A stretch of 64,000 nt of DNA from Actinomadura violacea (lineage in GTDB: Bacteria; Actinomycetota; Actinomycetes; Streptosporangiales; Streptosporangiaceae), in contig NZ_JAGEPF010000001.1 in the NCBI RefSeq assembly GCF_017573465.1, positions 186,001 to 250,000 of the forward strand. Direction: 5' to 3'. The first letter of the stretch is position 1. Every line of letters starts with the position of its first letter. Positions 11,179 to 17,408 of the stretch are shown here, one piece after another. A program made the position numbers and the translations under genes. Under the pieces are notes generated by a model, which made no database searches, was not told where the DNA came from, and saw only the letters and a list, made by a program, of their open reading frames with translations.

Positions 11179-11967
11179 ATGGACATGCGATATGTGAGCG
11201 TCCAGGGCGGCCCGCTGCCGGTGTGGGTGCGAGACGGAGAGCCGGCCGCACTGGTGTTCCTGCACTACTGGGGCGGTTCCCGCCACACCTTCGCGCCGGT
11301 GATCGACCGTCTCGCCTCGGGCGGCACCGTCGTTTCCTACGACCACCGCGGCTGGGGTGCGGCGCGCGACCTCCCCGGGCCGTACGGGATCGAGCAGCTC
11401 GCCGACGACGTGCTGGACGTGGTTCGCGGCCTCGGCCTCAGTAACTACGTGCTCGTCGGGCACTCGATGGGCGGGAAGGTCGCTCAACTGGCGGCGTCGC
11501 GGAGGCCCGACGGCCTGGCCGGGCTCGTCCTCGTCGCCCCGGCCCCGCCCCGTCCGGCCGTCGACGCCCAAGCGGCGGACGCACTGGCCCACGCCTACGA
11601 CAGCCGCGCGACGGTCGGCGACGCGCTCCAGCACGTCCTCACTCACGGGCCCCTGCCCGCCGACCTGCGCGAACAGGTGCTGACCGACAGCCTCGCCGCA
11701 AGCGACGACGCCCGGCTCGCCTGGCCGCGCCACGGCATCACCGCGGACATCACCACCGCCGCCGCCGGCGCCATCGACGTCCCGGTCCATGTGCTGGCCG
11801 GGCAGCACGACCGGGTCGACCCGCCCGCATCACTGGAGGCCAACCTCCTGCCCTTCATCCCGGACGCGCACATGACGGTCATCGACGACACCGGCCACCT
11901 GTCACCACTCGAAGCCCCGGGCGCGCTCGCAACCCAGATCGACCGCTTCACCAACGCCCGTTCGTGA
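11179..11967 (+). CDS. Alpha/beta hydrolase
   Basis: A 262-residue cytosolic alpha/beta-fold hydrolase. The oxyanion region is FLHYWGGS (28-34), the nucleophile elbow GHSMGG places Ser96, and the acid and base are probably Asp211 (AGQHDRVDPP) and His240 (DDTGHLSPLE). These are the features of the esterase/haloperoxidase-like group, so it may act as a carboxylesterase, lactonase or similar; the substrate is not predictable. ATG 11179 has AAAGGAGAG upstream. It is divergent from the AraC regulator, which suggests inducible control, and converges with the methyltransferase gene with only 12 bp between stops. Confidence 0.87.
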   Translation: MDMRYVSVQGGPLPVWVRDGEPAALVFLHYWGGSRHTFAPVIDRLASGGTVVSYDHRGWGAARDLPGPYGIEQLADDVLDVVRGLGLSNYVLVGHSMGGKVAQLAASRRPDGLAGLVLVAPAPPRPAVDAQAADALAHAYDSRATVGDALQHVLTHGPLPADLREQVLTDSLAASDDARLAWPRHGITADITTAAAGAIDVPVHVLAGQHDRVDPPASLEANLLPFIPDAHMTVIDDTGHLSPLEAPGALATQIDRFTNARS

Positions 11968-11979
11968 AACCCGGCGCTC

Positions 11980-13086
11980 TCACATCGTGTTGGACGGACG
12001 GTCGAGCCAGACCCGCTGCCCCTCCGAGCCCACGACCAGGCCGAACCGGTCGCGTCCAGGACATCCCCACCCGACCCAGCGCAGGTACGCGGCCTCGACC
12101 TCGTCCCACAACCGCCGCTCACCGCCCTGAACGACCGGGAAATCGTCCGCGCCCGCCCGGTGCGAACACCGCGCCCACGACGTTCCCGCCTCGTCCGCGA
12201 GCACCAGGCACGTCAGCCCTTGGACGACCCGCTCGGCGCCGAGCACGTCAGGCAGCATCCCGGCGATCGCGATGTCCGCCCCGGCCACCGTCCGCGGGTC
12301 CAGCCGCGTCCGCGTCTCCTCGCCGTCCCGTTCGAGATCGCCGAACCCGGGGCTGCGCTGCGACCGCAGCATCATGTAGTCGGCCGGGCCGTGGAACCGC
12401 CCGATCGCGCGGCCGTCGCCGGTGACCGTGAGCCGCGCCTTGCGCCCGTCCCCGAACGACGGCATCCACGGGAAAAGGACCACCCCGCCCGGCCGCGTCT
12501 GCTCGATCCAGCTCAACGGCAGGACGGTGACCCCGCACGTCACATGGACCCGGTCGAACGGCGCCCGCTCGGGAACACCCTTCTCCCCGTCGCCGACCAC
12601 CAGGCCCGGTGCGAACCCCGCCTCCCGCAGGTTCACCGCCGCCCTTTCCGCGACCCGATCGTCCACCTCGACGGACGTCACCCGCCGGTCGCCGAGCCTG
12701 GACGACAGCAGGGCCGCCGTCCACCCCGTCCCCGTGCCGATCTCCAGCACGCGGTCGTGATCGCGAGGCGCGAGCAGTTCGAGGAAGCTCACCACCGCCC
12801 CGGGCGCCGACAGCGACGACGTCGACGCCCCTTCACCGGACGCCGGATCCCCAGCTCCGTCGTCCACCTGCGTGACGATCGCGACGTCGGCATAGGCGGC
12901 CTCCCTCCACCGCTCCGGGTCGGCGAACCGATCGATCCTGTAGGGCGCCCCCGCCCCATCAGGAACACACCATGCGCGATCCGGAACGAACAGATGACGC
13001 GGCACCGCGTACATCGCCCGCTCCCACTCAGGACTGCGCAGGTCACCGCTCTCCCGCAGGAGCCGGACGAGTTCGGAGGTCGTCAC
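11980..13086 (-). CDS. PIMT-type peptide O-methyltransferase (RiPP-associated type)
   Basis: A 368-residue SAM-dependent methyltransferase related to protein-L-isoaspartate O-methyltransferase but longer. Motif I VLEIGTGTG is at 113-121 and motif post-I TSVEVDD at 137-143. The PIMT substrate-binding stretch STSSLSAPGAV is at 88-98. The N-terminus, AVPRHLFVPDRAW (27-39) then ADVAIVTQVDDG (66-77), and the extra C-terminal domain of about 150 residues match methyltransferases found in graspetide, FxLD-lanthipeptide and imiditide gene clusters rather than the repair enzyme. The start is GTG 13086, overlapping the stop of the 35-codon gene upstream (GTGA), so the two are translationally coupled. 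No ATP-grasp or lanthionine synthetase gene is nearby. I infer that it esterifies an Asp in that peptide, which could then cyclise to an aspartimide. Confidence 0.82.
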   Translation of the reverse strand: MTTSELVRLLRESGDLRSPEWERAMYAVPRHLFVPDRAWCVPDGAGAPYRIDRFADPERWREAAYADVAIVTQVDDGAGDPASGEGASTSSLSAPGAVVSFLELLAPRDHDRVLEIGTGTGWTAALLSSRLGDRRVTSVEVDDRVAERAAVNLREAGFAPGLVVGDGEKGVPERAPFDRVHVTCGVTVLPLSWIEQTRPGGVVLFPWMPSFGDGRKARLTVTGDGRAIGRFHGPADYMMLRSQRSPGFGDLERDGEETRTRLDPRTVAGADIAIAGMLPDVLGAERVVQGLTCLVLADEAGTSWARCSHRAGADDFPVVQGGERRLWDEVEAAYLRWVGWGCPGRDRFGLVVGSEGQRVWLDRPSNTM

Positions 13087-13190
13087 TTTCCCCTCTTCCC
13101 GCCGCCACCGGTGTTGTCGTCGTCCTTCTTGTCCGGCGGAATCGGCTGCCTCGGACGATGCGTGTCGCCGGTATTGTCGTGCTTCCCCAT
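13083..13190 (-). CDS. 35-residue charged peptide, candidate imiditide-type precursor
   Basis: A short gene with an exceptionally good ribosome-binding site: AAGGAGGT at 13197-13204, 6 nt from ATG 13190. The product starts MGKHDNTGDTHRPRQPIPPD and continues with KKDDDNTGGGGKRGK. It is hydrophilic, with six Asp, ten Lys/Arg/His and no Cys or Trp. The tetrapeptide DNTG occurs twice (5-8 and 25-28), once near each end, with a Pro-rich hinge between. Its TGA overlaps the GTG of the methyltransferase. A highly charged, unstructured Asp-containing peptide beside a lone PIMT homologue is the organisation reported for imiditides, RiPPs carrying an aspartimide. Coding status is strongly supported by the RBS and the coupling; the precursor role is inferred. 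Confidence 0.75.
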   Translation of the reverse strand: MGKHDNTGDTHRPRQPIPPDKKDDDNTGGGGKRGK

Positions 13191-13394
13191 CGCTTTACCT
13201 CCTTGTATGGCCCCGGCCCTCACCGGAACGCCGTTTTCACCGTGTCGGGAACAACCGACAGGTCAGAAGAGCCCCAACCGCCTCCACTCGCCCTTCCGAG
13301 CCGCCACGGGAGAGCAGAACCTCGCCCCGTACCGAACGCGCCCGTCGGAAAGTCCGCGCTCCGCGAGCCGCCCGGCCTCGAAGACCACGGCCCC

Positions 13395-13790
13395 TTACAG
13401 GACGCATTTCACCCACGTGACCTTTCCGCCTTCCACCAGCGGGCGCGTCCCCCACGAGAGCGCCAGCTCCGAGACCAGGAAGACGCCGCGCCCGGACGTG
13501 GCCTGGAGATCCTCCGCGCACACCACCGGCCGCCCGTCCCCGCCGTCCCACACCTCGATCACGGCCGCGCCGTCCCGCTCGTCCCGGAACACCCGCACCA
13601 CGACCGGCCCCTCGCCGTGCACGCACGAATTCGTGACCAGCTCGCTCACCAGGACGCGTCCGACGTAGTCGTCGCCGGCCCCCCATTCGCGGAACCATTC
13701 CGCAAGGAACCGCCGCGCCAGCCCTGGCGCCTGATCACCCGCCTCCAACACGAGCGTCGGCACTTCCGGTGTCATGGCATTCAGGGACAT
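13395..13790 (-). CDS. ATP-binding anti-sigma-like regulator (HATPase_c, RsbW/AbaA type)
   Basis: A 131-residue single-domain GHKL ATPase of the kind encoded beside WhiJ-like regulators in actinomycetes. The N-box is VSELVTNSCVHGEG (about 48-61), the G1-like box VIEVWDGGDGRP (about 77-88) and the G2-like segment SGRGVFLV (about 99-106). Such proteins bind ATP and may phosphorylate or sequester sigma or anti-anti-sigma factors; the partner here is unknown. ATG 13790 has GGGAGG about 9 nt upstream. The gene is divergent from the XRE regulator at 13959 and lies 204 bp upstream of the peptide/methyltransferase pair on the same strand, so it could share a transcript with them. Confidence 0.85.
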   Translation of the reverse strand: MSLNAMTPEVPTLVLEAGDQAPGLARRFLAEWFREWGAGDDYVGRVLVSELVTNSCVHGEGPVVVRVFRDERDGAAVIEVWDGGDGRPVVCAEDLQATSGRGVFLVSELALSWGTRPLVEGGKVTWVKCVL

Positions 13791-13958
13791 AGCGCCCACC
13801 CTCCCTGGCAGATTTCGGATTCGGCAGGCACCAGAGAACCGCATGAGCAACACTCTGCGTGACAAGAAGAGTTCATTCGCGTAATCACGCCTGTCGAGGT
13901 TGGCGGTCGCTCGCCACCACTTGCCGGGCGGCGCGGCACGGTTGCGGGAGGATGCGAC

Positions 13959-14759
13959 ATGGTCCGGAAGGCTCGCCACAACTCGCAGGCCATCAGCCCG
14001 ACGCTCATCGCGTTCGGGAACCAGGTGCGCTACTACCGCGAGCGGATGAAGCTCAGCCAGGACCGCCTCGGCGAGCGCTTCCCCGTCAGCGGCTCGTACA
14101 TCGGGCAGATCGAGGTGGGCAAGACCCGCTGCACCGAGGAGTTCGCGCAGCAGCTGGACGAGCTGGTCGGCGCTGATGGGTGCCTCGCCCGGCTTTGGAA
14201 GGACCTCGTCCAGGACGCCGCCTACCCCACCTGGTTCGACTGGCCCGCCATCGAACGCGACGCCGCGATGCTTCAAGCCTTTGAACTCTCAGTGGTTCAC
14301 GGCCTCCTGCAAACGCCCGAGTATGCGATGGCCCTACTGGGCGACGAGGCGGCGGTAGAAGCGCGCATGGGCCGGCAGAGCATTCTGAGTCAAGAGAGCC
14401 CTCAGCCTCCGAATCTCGCTGTTCTCCTGGACGAAAGCGTCCTGTACCGTGAAGTGGGTGGCTCCGAGGTCATGCGGAGGCAGCTGGAACATCTGATCGC
14501 TTCCATAGGAAAACGACTCACGGTCCAGATCGTTCCGTCAGAGGTGCACGATGGCTTGTCGGGGTCGTTCATACTCGCGACGCTGTGGGATCGGAGTGAG
14601 GTGGCTTATGTGGAGACGGCCCTTCGTGGCATGACCATGGCGAGTGCGGGCGATATGGCAAAGCTTTCTGAATCTCTCGTGTCCCTCCGAGCCAGCGCCT
14701 TCTCGATGAAGGATTCGGTCAGGCTGATGCGTAAGGCGATTGAGGAGAGATGGACTTGA
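13959..14759 (+). CDS. WhiJ-like XRE regulator with DUF5753
   Basis: A 266-residue regulator. The helix-turn-helix is at about 15-70: FGNQVRYYRERMKLSQDRLG, then VSGSYIGQIEVGKTRC. A DUF5753 domain follows (about 85-260), recognisable by WFDWPAIERDA, the conserved VVHGLLQTPEYA and LLDESVLYREVGG. In streptomycetes such proteins work together with a small DUF397 protein and a HATPase protein in developmental and antibiotic control (whiJ and abaA-like loci). All three partners are present here: HATPase divergent at 13395 and DUF397 at 14750 and 14951. The 3' end overlaps the first DUF397 gene by 10 bp, so the two are coupled. Confidence 0.92.
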   Translation: MVRKARHNSQAISPTLIAFGNQVRYYRERMKLSQDRLGERFPVSGSYIGQIEVGKTRCTEEFAQQLDELVGADGCLARLWKDLVQDAAYPTWFDWPAIERDAAMLQAFELSVVHGLLQTPEYAMALLGDEAAVEARMGRQSILSQESPQPPNLAVLLDESVLYREVGGSEVMRRQLEHLIASIGKRLTVQIVPSEVHDGLSGSFILATLWDRSEVAYVETALRGMTMASAGDMAKLSESLVSLRASAFSMKDSVRLMRKAIEERWT

Positions 14760-14932
14760 CCAGCGTTCTGTGGCGCAAGAGCAGCATGAGCACCAACAAC
14801 GGCGGCGCGTGTGTCGAACTCGCATCGGTGTCCCGGTCGGTGGCCATCCGTGACAGCAAGGACCCCGACGGCCCCAAGCTGGTCTTCGACCGACACGACT
14901 TCGCGGCGTTCCTGGAACGCGTCAAGCGCTAG
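14750..14932 (+). CDS. DUF397 protein, copy 1
   Basis: A 60-residue DUF397 protein. Family marks are WRKSSMSTNNGGACVELA near the N-terminus, VAIRDSKDPDGPKLVF in the middle and the FAAFLERVK end. DUF397 proteins are predicted antagonists or co-factors of the WhiJ-like XRE protein encoded just upstream, often compared to an antitoxin-like partner, but the mechanism is not settled. ATG 14750 lies inside the last codons of the XRE gene, so expression is coupled. A second copy follows 18 bp after its stop. Confidence 0.93.
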   Translation: MDLTSVLWRKSSMSTNNGGACVELASVSRSVAIRDSKDPDGPKLVFDRHDFAAFLERVKR

Positions 14933-14950
14933 CGCTGTGTGGACGTGAGC

Positions 14951-15136
14951 ATGGTGAACATGGCCAAGGTCGTTTGGCGGAAGTCGAGTTACACCACGTC
15001 CAATGGCGGCGACTGCGTGGAGCTTGCGTCGGTGCCTGGGACGGTAGCCGTCCGAGACAGCAAGGACCCGGACGGGCCGAAGCTGGTGTTCGGACGGCGC
15101 GCGTTCACGTCCTTCCTGACCGGCATCAAGCGGTAG
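14951..15136 (+). CDS. DUF397 protein, copy 2 (tandem paralogue)
   Basis: A 61-residue paralogue of the preceding gene. Shared blocks are WRKSS, NGG, CVELASV, RDSKDPDGPKLVF and a final IKR/VKR. It differs at the variable turn (YTTSNGGD for MSTNNGGA) and near the C-terminus (RRAFTSFLTG). ATG 14951 is preferred because it gives the usual family length; GTG 14939 and ATG 14960 are also possible. The duplication suggests either dosage or two specificities for a single XRE partner. A long perfect inverted repeat begins 19 bp after its stop. Confidence 0.88.
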   Translation: MVNMAKVVWRKSSYTTSNGGDCVELASVPGTVAVRDSKDPDGPKLVFGRRAFTSFLTGIKR

Positions 15137-15155
15137 TCGCCGGGCGGCGGCTGGG

Positions 15156-15223
15156 TGCGTTGACTTGCGGCGTGTCGGCCTTATGAGCGGCGTCTTAAGG
15201 ACGACACGCCGCAAGTCAACGCA
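15156..15223. terminator. 22-bp perfect inverted repeat between convergent genes
   Basis: Arms 15156-15177 and 15202-15223 are exact reverse complements over 22 bp. The 24-nt loop has a second small pairing (CCTTA 15179-15183 with TAAGG 15196-15200), so nearly the whole element can fold into one long hairpin. It separates the DUF397 gene, ending at 15136, from the convergent membrane-protein gene, whose last codons and stop (15216) lie inside the right arm. It lacks a T-tract on either side. A bidirectional terminator is the simplest reading; a remnant of an inverted-repeat element is also possible. Confidence 0.7.
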
Positions 15224-15758
15224 GTCGCAGGCTGTAGGTGGCGGCTTTCGTGGGGGCGGCGGGGTGGGGCGGCGGCGTTTTCGGTGTGCCCGGCGGGGGT
15301 GTGGGTGTCGGGTGGTTCCAGAGGAGTTGCACGTTCTTGGGGTGGTGGCGGTCGGCCCGGCACGCGTAGCCGGTGCGGCCCGCGCCGATCGCTCCGGCGA
15401 CCATGGACGACACCGCGGACGTGCTGTCGGTCTCGTAGGGGGCCTTGCCGGGCGTCTGGACGCGCACGTGGAAGCGGTAGACGCGGTCGCCATTGATCGT
15501 CGAGCGGGCGTCCCGCGTTCTGAGGATCGTGGCGGTGCACCTCACCGCTTGAGAGGCGCTGACCTCGCTGGTCATGAGCTCGTGGTGCTGTTTCACCACG
15601 TAGGTCATCGCCCAGCCGATGCCCACGGCGGCGAGCATCATGATCACTCCGCCGGCGACCGTGCCGTCGTGGTCGCGTATGCCGCTCACGAGGCCGAACA
15701 GCCCCATGGCGAAGACGCCCAGCAGCACGAGGTACACGAGGCCGTCAATGATGATCAC
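15216..15758 (-). CDS. Two-TM membrane protein, DUF3592-like
   Basis: A 180-residue protein with two N-terminal membrane helices (about 4-24 and 34-55). An extracytoplasmic or cytoplasmic beta-rich domain follows (about 70-145) with RCTATILRTRD and VYRFHVRVQTPGKAPYET, a pattern resembling DUF3592. A Pro/Thr-rich tail of about 30 residues ends the protein. The start is GTG 15758. No function can be assigned. The final codons are formed by the right arm of the 22-bp inverted repeat, so the C-terminus may have been altered when that element arose. Confidence 0.6.
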   Translation of the reverse strand: MIIIDGLVYLVLLGVFAMGLFGLVSGIRDHDGTVAGGVIMMLAAVGIGWAMTYVVKQHHELMTSEVSASQAVRCTATILRTRDARSTINGDRVYRFHVRVQTPGKAPYETDSTSAVSSMVAGAIGAGRTGYACRADRHHPKNVQLLWNHPTPTPPPGTPKTPPPHPAAPTKAATYSLRLR

Positions 15759-15886: not shown

Positions 15887-16840
15887 TCAGTGGTGCTGCG
15901 CCTTGAGCTGCTCGTTCTGCTTCTTGATGTAGGGCTCCTGGGCGCTCCAGGGGACGAGCCGGCCCGGCAGGTCGTTCGTCCAGCCGGACGTCGTCTGCGA
16001 GGGGCCGACGGGCAGGTCGCCGTCTCCGAATCCGGCCCATCCTTCGACGCGCAACTGGGTGCTCTTCGGGTCGACGACGATGGTCTCGGTGCCGTCGGCC
16101 CGGGTGCCGTCGTCGCTCATGTAGGTGATCTTGAGGCGATAGCCGTCCGCAGTCTTGCCGAGGTTGTCGATGTGGGGCATCCCGGCGAGCGCGCGGAAGG
16201 CCGCGGCGCGGACCTTCGGCGGGGCGGGCGTCTCTGAGAGGACCGCCTGGAGCAGGTTGATGGTGGAGAGCTGCGGCTGCTCGCGGGCGGCTGCCGGGGT
16301 CGTGGAGCTCTTGAGCAGCGCGGCCTTGAGCCGGGCCGGGTCGGTCGGCAGCCGCTGGAAATCGTCGATGCCCAGATCGGCCTCTCGGAGCACCGACCGC
16401 TTCCCGACGCGGCTGACCAGGCCGGGCGCGGCGCTGAGCCAGGTGCGGCCGTCGCGCGCGAACCACGTCTCGCCGGTGTCGGTGACCTTGCCGAGCCGCT
16501 GGATGGTCTTGATGTGCCAGTACGTGCCCGAGGTGGCGGGCTTCGCCTCCGCGGTGGTCGCCGCCGCGAGCATGACCTGCGGTCCGGTGAGGACCTGCTC
16601 CTTCCTGGTGGTCTTCTTGGCGGGGGAGTCCGGTGCGGACAGGTCGGAGACGACGATGGCCGCCGCTGCCGCCGCCGCGGTGAGCCCGGCTCCGGCCATG
16701 ATCCAGCGCCGTGCCCGCCGGGGCTTGGCGGGGCCGCCGCCCCGCATCGTGTTTTGGAGCCGGTGCCGGCTGCGGTCGACGGCGTCGGCGGACGGGTCGG
16801 GCCCGGCAAGCGCGGTGCCGAGCAGCTTCAGGTCATCCAT
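15887..16840 (-). CDS. CU044_5270-family membrane-anchored protein, sigma-linked
   Basis: A 317-residue protein with a basic cytoplasmic N-terminus (about 1-45), one membrane helix (about 46-64, IMAGAGLTAAAAAAAIVV) and an extracytoplasmic domain of about 250 residues. That domain contains GTYWHIKTIQRLG and TWFARDGRTWLS blocks. This arrangement and the position directly after an ECF sigma gene match the CU044_5270 family of actinomycetes. By analogy it could be an anti-sigma-like sensor, but no zinc anti-sigma motif is visible. Its ATG overlaps the sigma stop codon by 8 nt (ATGGATGA), so the two are co-translated. Confidence 0.78.
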   Translation of the reverse strand: MDDLKLLGTALAGPDPSADAVDRSRHRLQNTMRGGGPAKPRRARRWIMAGAGLTAAAAAAAIVVSDLSAPDSPAKKTTRKEQVLTGPQVMLAAATTAEAKPATSGTYWHIKTIQRLGKVTDTGETWFARDGRTWLSAAPGLVSRVGKRSVLREADLGIDDFQRLPTDPARLKAALLKSSTTPAAAREQPQLSTINLLQAVLSETPAPPKVRAAAFRALAGMPHIDNLGKTADGYRLKITYMSDDGTRADGTETIVVDPKSTQLRVEGWAGFGDGDLPVGPSQTTSGWTNDLPGRLVPWSAQEPYIKKQNEQLKAQHH

Positions 16841-17408
16841 GGAACGCCTCCGGCGGGATCACATCGTGCAGTTTCTTACGGGCGCGGGAGAGGCGGGAGC
16901 CGACCGTGCCCCGGGAGATTCCGAGCGCCTCCGCGACCTCCTCGTACGTGAGGTCGGCCAGCGCGATGAGGAGCACCACGTCGCGTTCGCCGGGGGACAG
17001 CGCGGCGAGCGCTTTGGCCAGCTGGGGCCGCAGGCGGCGGGCGGCGACCGCGGTGACGACGCGGTCCTCGTGGCTGCCGGCCGCGGGGACGTCGCCGCCG
17101 GTCCGCGCCATCGCCCGGTAGCGGCGCGCCTCCTTGCGCCGGTGCTGCCCGACGAGGTTCGTGGCGATCCCGAACAGCCAGGCGCGCAGGGCGCCCCGCT
17201 CGGGGTCGAACCTGTCGCGCTGCCCGAACGCGCGGCAGAACGTCTCGGCGGCGATGTCCTCCGCCGTCTGGGGGTCCAGGCGGCCGGCGACGTAGCGGTA
17301 GACGTCCCGGAAGTAGCGGTCGTGCACCTCGGTGAACCGCTCCGGATCCCGCCGGAACCCGGCGGCGATGTCGAGGTCGGTCGGCGACTCACCCAACCCG
17401 GTGGTCAC
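16833..17408 (-). CDS. ECF-type RNA polymerase sigma factor
   Basis: A 191-residue sigma-70 family member with only regions 2 and 4. Region 2 spans about 25-95 and includes DVYRYVAGRLDPQTAEDIAA, FCRAFGQRDRF and RAWLFGIATNLVGQHRR. Region 4 spans about 125-180 and includes LSPGERDVVLLIALADLTYE and ISRGTVGSRLSRARKKL. The start is GTG 17408, with AGGACAGG upstream. It directs polymerase to a small regulon, probably controlled by the membrane protein encoded immediately downstream. I could not find a convincing autoregulatory ECF promoter in the 99 bp upstream. Confidence 0.93.
   Translation of the reverse strand: MTTGLGESPTDLDIAAGFRRDPERFTEVHDRYFRDVYRYVAGRLDPQTAEDIAAETFCRAFGQRDRFDPERGALRAWLFGIATNLVGQHRRKEARRYRAMARTGGDVPAAGSHEDRVVTAVAARRLRPQLAKALAALSPGERDVVLLIALADLTYEEVAEALGISRGTVGSRLSRARKKLHDVIPPEAFHG

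Follow-up and report, generated by a model that had tools for sequence, protein, structure and literature searches.

The closest described systems are the imiditides, which a 2026 review (PMC13001092) equated with type I pamtides, counted at 1,414 type I members and recorded most often in Streptomyces and Actinomadura. Pamtides were reported as 1,183 non-redundant putative precursors with 1,539 PIMT-type O-methyltransferases (PAMTs); type I precursors are about 45 aa long and rich in Gly, Pro and Asp, and one of them, SpaA, was converted in vitro by SpaM (PMC10787088). Our results point to a predicted stand-alone imiditide (type I pamtide) locus, very probably (rough probability 0.87), in Actinomadura violacea (host genome of 11.17 Mb in 73 contigs). 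It lies within a stretch of 64,000 nucleotides, hereafter the window, whose positions are used throughout. The locus is a further member of a class described in 2023, and may already be within its published data sets; its novelty is therefore lower than the initial annotation held, given that description (PMC10787088) and the 1,414 type I members (PMC13001092). The features of the locus and of its immediate neighbourhood are as follows.

11980-13086, minus strand: PIMT-type O-methyltransferase (PAMT), 368 aa, with an extra C-terminal domain at about residues 256-361 (profiles, model, tree)
12058-12078, minus strand: WxxxGxP motif (WVGWGCP, residues 337-343; sequence and alignment)
13083-13086, minus strand: GTGA, in which the precursor stop and the methyltransferase start overlap (read from the sequence)
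13083-13190, minus strand: predicted imiditide (type I pamtide) precursor gene, 35 aa (ORF, profile matches, dN/dS)
13122-13124, minus strand: Asp23 codon, most likely modified residue (D 33, N 2 among 35 distinct peptides)
13164-13166, minus strand: Asp9 codon, second candidate (D 29, N 6 among 35 distinct peptides)
13197-13204, minus strand: Shine-Dalgarno sequence AAGGAGGT, 6 nt before the ATG
13395-13796, minus strand: AbaA-like HATPase_c_2 gene, start codon inferred, co-directional with the precursor and 204 nt upstream of it
13959-14759, plus strand: WhiJ-like XRE-DUF5753 regulator, divergent (profile match)
14750-14932, plus strand: DUF397 (BldB-like) protein 1 (profile match)
14939-15136, plus strand: DUF397 (BldB-like) protein 2 (profile match)

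The precursor gene starts with ATG at 13190 and ends with TGA at 13085-13083 (minus strand), and the methyltransferase start codon is a GTG at 13086. The initial annotation had described exactly this arrangement, i.e. a 35-codon gene with a strong ribosome site and a GTGA overlap with a PIMT homologue, and its coordinates proved correct. Translation likewise bore out the two DNTG elements (residues 5-8 and 25-28) and the six Asp (residues 5, 9, 20, 23, 24 and 25) that it had attributed to the peptide, which further contains 7 G, 4 P and 5 K out of 35 residues and no Cys.

This two-gene layout is shared with the imiditides NmaA-NmaM of Nonomuraea maritima and SpaA-SpaM of Streptomyces sparsogenes. 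Common traits also include a small charged peptide rich in Gly, Pro, Asp and Lys, a PAMT with a C-terminal domain and the WxxxGxP motif, the failure to find any other maturase and the host genus, Actinomadura being one of the two commonest (PMC13001092). Unlike known imiditides, the peptide is shorter (35 aa) and belongs to an MGKHD...PIPP..KD subfamily, its enzyme is 41% identical to the S. sparsogenes one, and the pair stands behind an AbaA-like gene. A PAMT and a small peptide are also found in type II pamtides or cysimiditides (FcaA-FcaM), yet the two CxxCxGxG motifs of the latter are absent from the Cys-free peptide described here.

Conservation of the peptide gene was examined with a profile built from nine peptides (E up to 0.001), which matched in 41 of 341 family genomes at 42 places; neighbour genes were inspected at all 41 matched places besides the window itself. 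A homologous methyltransferase lay directly behind the peptide in 39 of these 41 (spacing -1 to 83 nt). Since eight of the 41 were seed rows (matched by contig), the unbiased figure is the 31/33 pairing among non-seeds. The search for homologous small genes beside related methyltransferases that the initial annotation had proposed thus revealed a conserved pair. The two non-pairing matches were L168, which has a run-on peptide frame and gave no PAMT behind it, and L170 from A. montaniterrae, where the PAMT is present. In the latter species (L170, as in L043, there directly before 10001 of the locus) the peptide frame also runs on, a one-base difference in length breaking it before the conserved tail; this may be real decay, with a peptide perhaps dispensable there, or an assembly error.

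Comparison of the peptide gene with that of Actinomadura nitritigenes gave 8.0 synonymous changes (22.2 sites) and 4.0 nonsynonymous changes (82.8 sites; dS 0.49, dN 0.05, dN/dS about 0.1), a substitution pattern indicative of purifying selection. In A. oligospora (L047) the peptide was 91% identical to that of the window and the enzyme only 53-54%, so that in this species the enzyme has diverged further than its peptide. We conclude that the peptide gene is genuine and more than a chance ORF.

The enzyme carries a PCMT domain (profile match), and its nearest named relatives occur in A. nitritigenes (88%) and A. montaniterrae (85%). It was also 41% identical to the S. sparsogenes enzyme adjoining a pamtide-like precursor, at a locus (L096) that we take from its species and strain to be SpaA/SpaM. 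Within 34 aligned enzymes, W337 and P343 were invariant and G341 nearly so, in a motif, WxxxGxP, named as a hallmark of RiPP PIMTs (PMC13001092). The AlphaFold2 model was confident (pLDDT 96.0), and its C-terminal domain is predicted to comprise a strand (256-260), a helix (264-277), four strands (281-322), a second helix (326-339) and two further strands. It would hence open with a beta-alpha-beta4-alpha arrangement, as reported for PAMTs (Lee 2023), and the best Foldseek match of the model was 1dl5, a T. maritima PIMT having such a C-terminal domain. The VIA-align rows covered mainly residues 1-245 of the enzyme. The host genome contains a second PIMT homologue with WxxxGxP (L192, C26:68411-68764 and 70128-70649), a possible orphan PAMT: a DUF5753 gene lies about 1.4 kb from it, but its upstream region gave no convincing peptide gene.

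Among neighbouring families, the graspetide methyltransferases (TIGR04188, e.g. AmdM) came closest: the profile aligned end to end (residues 6-358) with 303.4 bits, yet below its curated cut-off of 380, so that, strictly speaking, the enzyme falls outside this graspetide subfamily. Its PIMT core is shared with FxLD-system methyltransferases (TIGR04364), but the score was 126 bits against a cut-off of 320 and the best stretch was limited to residues 58-206. Both comparisons had been suggested by the initial annotation, which had also raised the question of repair PIMTs; models of the latter matched only in part (PRK00312, 100.2 against a cut-off of 188; TIGR00080, 69.2 against 159.05). In the enzyme tree, the protein fell in a 23-row clade (support 99/98), most members of which have such a peptide; E. 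coli Pcm was placed outside, on a long branch of unsure placement. As judged from the model and the tree, the extra domain and the clade are unlike those of repair PIMTs.

Profile scans of 36 distinct chosen ORF products (window 120-30896; E up to 0.01 or 0.001) matched no RiPP ATP-grasp ligase, lanthionine synthetase, lasso or radical-SAM maturase. The lack of the first of these in the scanned products is a further difference from graspetide loci, and the initial annotation, which had seen neither an ATP-grasp nor a lanthionine synthetase gene nearby, held good for these products. The imiditide assignment is made because of the conserved pairing, the selection on the peptide, the RiPP-PIMT domain and motif, and the fact that no other maturase was matched among the scanned products; the view of a stand-alone pair already taken from the sequence is further strengthened by the clade and by the 41% identity with the S. 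sparsogenes enzyme. Points against it are the peptide length (35 aa versus the usual 45 or so), the TIGR04188 score below cut-off and the A. montaniterrae frame loss. By analogy with characterised relatives, the ribosome would make the 35-residue charged peptide, and the overlapping gene would provide a PAMT recognising it, probably via the basic C-terminal tail of the peptide and the C-terminal domain of the enzyme. The PAMT would then methylate one Asp side chain using SAM, the backbone amide would attack the ester to give an aspartimide, and the latter would hydrolyse, mostly to isoaspartate.

Two departures from this scheme were considered. The methyltransferase might act on other proteins, either in repair or on its AbaA-like or DUF397 neighbours, the small ORF being unimportant. 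Two observations speak for it: the own-genome paralogue L005, a PIMT homologue with WxxxGxP, has no convincing upstream peptide gene, though a DUF5753 gene lies about 1.4 kb away, and one locus in 41 (L168) has a run-on peptide frame with no PAMT behind it. Yet the signature of purifying selection on the peptide, the 39/41 pairing and the domain and clade setting the enzyme apart from repair PIMTs make it highly improbable. The other departure keeps the imiditide chemistry and concerns its position, with Asp9, or both Asp9 and Asp23, as the modified residue. Residue conservation was assessed on 39 peptides (35 distinct), leaving out L168 and L170 (no intact peptide) and, inadvertently, L151 (A. 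nitritigenes, Asp at both 9 and 23). Columns 9 and 23 take D or N only, whereas the Asp5 position (17 D, 11 E, 7 G) and the Asp24 position (19 D, 9 E, 4 G, 3 others) tolerate other residues, and in the nine closest peptides neither Asp9 nor Asp23 varies. Since succinimides form from Asp and Asn, this pattern would fit two succinimide-forming positions. However, Asp-to-Asn is also common as a neutral exchange and, to our knowledge, the RiPP PAMTs characterised to date modify a single Asp. In addition, NmaA is still modified after removal of its first 15-20 residues but less so when the last 10 are missing (PMC13001092), and these truncations favour the C-terminal candidate. We therefore regard Asp23 as the probable modification site, followed at some distance by Asp9; modification at Asp9 instead, or at both residues, is a tentative variant. 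The initial annotation had favoured Asp25 (in DNTGGGG), a choice now discarded on conservation, since this position is D in only 10 of the 35 distinct peptides (versus 33 for Asp23 and 29 for Asp9).

Nine precursors (L173-L177, L179, L181, L184 and L186) form a sub-group with Asn-Gly-His where the remainder have Asp9; deamidation of this sequence could yield a succinimide with no need for methylation.

All three gene types of WhiJ/BldB/AbaA modules (XRE-DUF5753, DUF397 and HATPase_c_2) stand side by side directly upstream of the pair, as in abaA/whiJ/bldB loci (PMC10294661); XRE-DUF397 pairs have been reported to regulate antibiotic production (PMC10364602). A longer ORF (13395-14276) was rejected as the AbaA-like gene, being too long, with an upstream portion that runs antisense to the regulator gene. 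The tandem DUF397 genes (14750-15136) correspond to a single DUF397 match in the equivalent A. nitritigenes stretch (L042). Further upstream, an ECF-type sigma factor gene (Sigma70_r2, r4_2; 16836-17408, minus strand), conserved in A. montaniterrae, is adjoined by a 317-aa ORF (15890-16840) with no Pfam match. No sigma-70-like promoter was found in 11850-14100, and the repeat search returned two-copy matches only.

The own genome has 44 matches to DUF5753 in its 11.17 Mb. Proximity of such genes to PAMTs was evaluated with an enzyme-only query that found 80 loci, 70 of which were used (10 were left out by hand, mostly partial matches). Regulators were matched with a profile built on those of such loci, Pfam being applied to the own genome and the window only. 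Matches to XRE-DUF5753 numbered 28 in 278 kb at 0-2 kb from the enzyme, 8 in 264 kb at 2-4 kb and 8 in 747 kb at 4-10 kb, a near/far ratio of about 9 (p 8e-10; the test is crude, taking kilobases as trials and ignoring relatedness). Loci with such enzymes are thus enriched roughly ninefold for WhiJ-type regulators within 2 kb. These were present at that distance in 26 of the 70 loci and, among the 55 with full flanks, in 18 at 0-2 kb, 1 at 4-6 kb and 2 at 6-8 kb. The 41 peptide-profile loci gave 21 within 2 kb and 25 within 4 kb. The same held for DUF397 (15 in 278 kb at 0-2 kb versus 8 in 747 kb at 4-10 kb). AbaA-like HATPase genes were not enriched (5 in 278 kb near versus 11 in 747 kb far in the 70 loci; within 2 kb in 10 of the 41 peptide-profile loci), and were dropped as a general partner. 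The layout of the window, with the abaA-like gene before the peptide and the whiJ-like gene divergent, recurs in L042 (same place as L151), L043, L083, L167 and L181; in S. sparsogenes an XRE-DUF5753-type regulator gene directly precedes the precursor on the same strand.

In the literature searched, subscription papers aside, such a regulator link was found stated for graspetides only and not for imiditides. It concerns graspetide groups 11 and 13, the latter being graspimiditides with PIMTs (PMC13097080), and HATPase and DUF5753 neighbours of actinobacterial graspetide loci (PMC8939145). PMC13001092 contains none of the words regulator, helix-turn-helix, transcription, DUF397 and XRE, and the word regulator is absent from the main text of PMC10787088.

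When 65 XRE-DUF5753 proteins of these loci were placed in a tree, all 19 without an adjacent DUF397 fell in one clade (100/99), including the regulator directly before the S. sparsogenes precursor; the window's own regulator fell outside. Exclusivity was examined with a profile of the clade's tight core on 40 loci (L198-L237) near the top among the matches listed, a set that left out three seed genomes and most second matches per genome and in which 8 of 40 flanks were under 2.5 kb (contig end). A PAMT was in reach in 11/40 and downstream within 2 kb in 8/40 of these; as L206 is seed row L065, the unbiased figures are 10/39 and 7/39. A dedicated imiditide regulator was consequently rejected, most of these tight-core members lacking a PAMT; PAMT neighbours are over-represented in the clade, which is nonetheless not dedicated to imiditides. 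Three-gene imiditide units, in which the regulator is followed on one strand by precursor and PAMT with no intervening DUF397, occur at L205 (G066:C6) and L206 (G150:C2, same place as L065).

On gene order alone, the neighbouring regulator genes may control the pair. One reading sees the product not as a secreted antimicrobial but as a signal or effector linked to the neighbouring WhiJ/DUF397-type regulators. Here the WhiJ-like protein would govern the genes divergent from its own (abaA-like, peptide and PAMT), and the peptide, once modified, would act back on this regulator or on development. The ninefold ratio, the enriched DUF397 genes and the recurring layout are consistent with it, and there is a precedent in S. 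venezuelae, where the divergent gene iosA is under the control of WhiJ9 (PMC10294661). Yet most of the 70 loci are without a regulator within 2 kb, the AbaA-like genes are not enriched, the tight regulator clade is not exclusive (8/40 with a PAMT downstream among the matches listed, one a seed row) and no WhiJ9-type repeat was found in 13301-15300. The enrichment moreover ignores relatedness, and co-location by itself is no demonstration of function. We consider this reading unlikely. A more specific form, in which imiditides are chemically switched partners of WhiJ/DUF397-type developmental regulators and not secreted antibiotics, is more doubtful still: a WhiJ-type protein would control peptide and PAMT, and the aspartimide/isoAsp state at the two Asp/Asn-only sites would feed back on the regulator.

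The function of imiditides remains to be discovered according to the 2026 review (PMC13001092). If true, partnership with regulators would supply the missing function of the class, and the regulator linkage gives a handle on the question of what imiditides do. The present locus adds a well-supported imiditide, with near relatives in A. nitritigenes and A. oligospora that make the modified residue testable.
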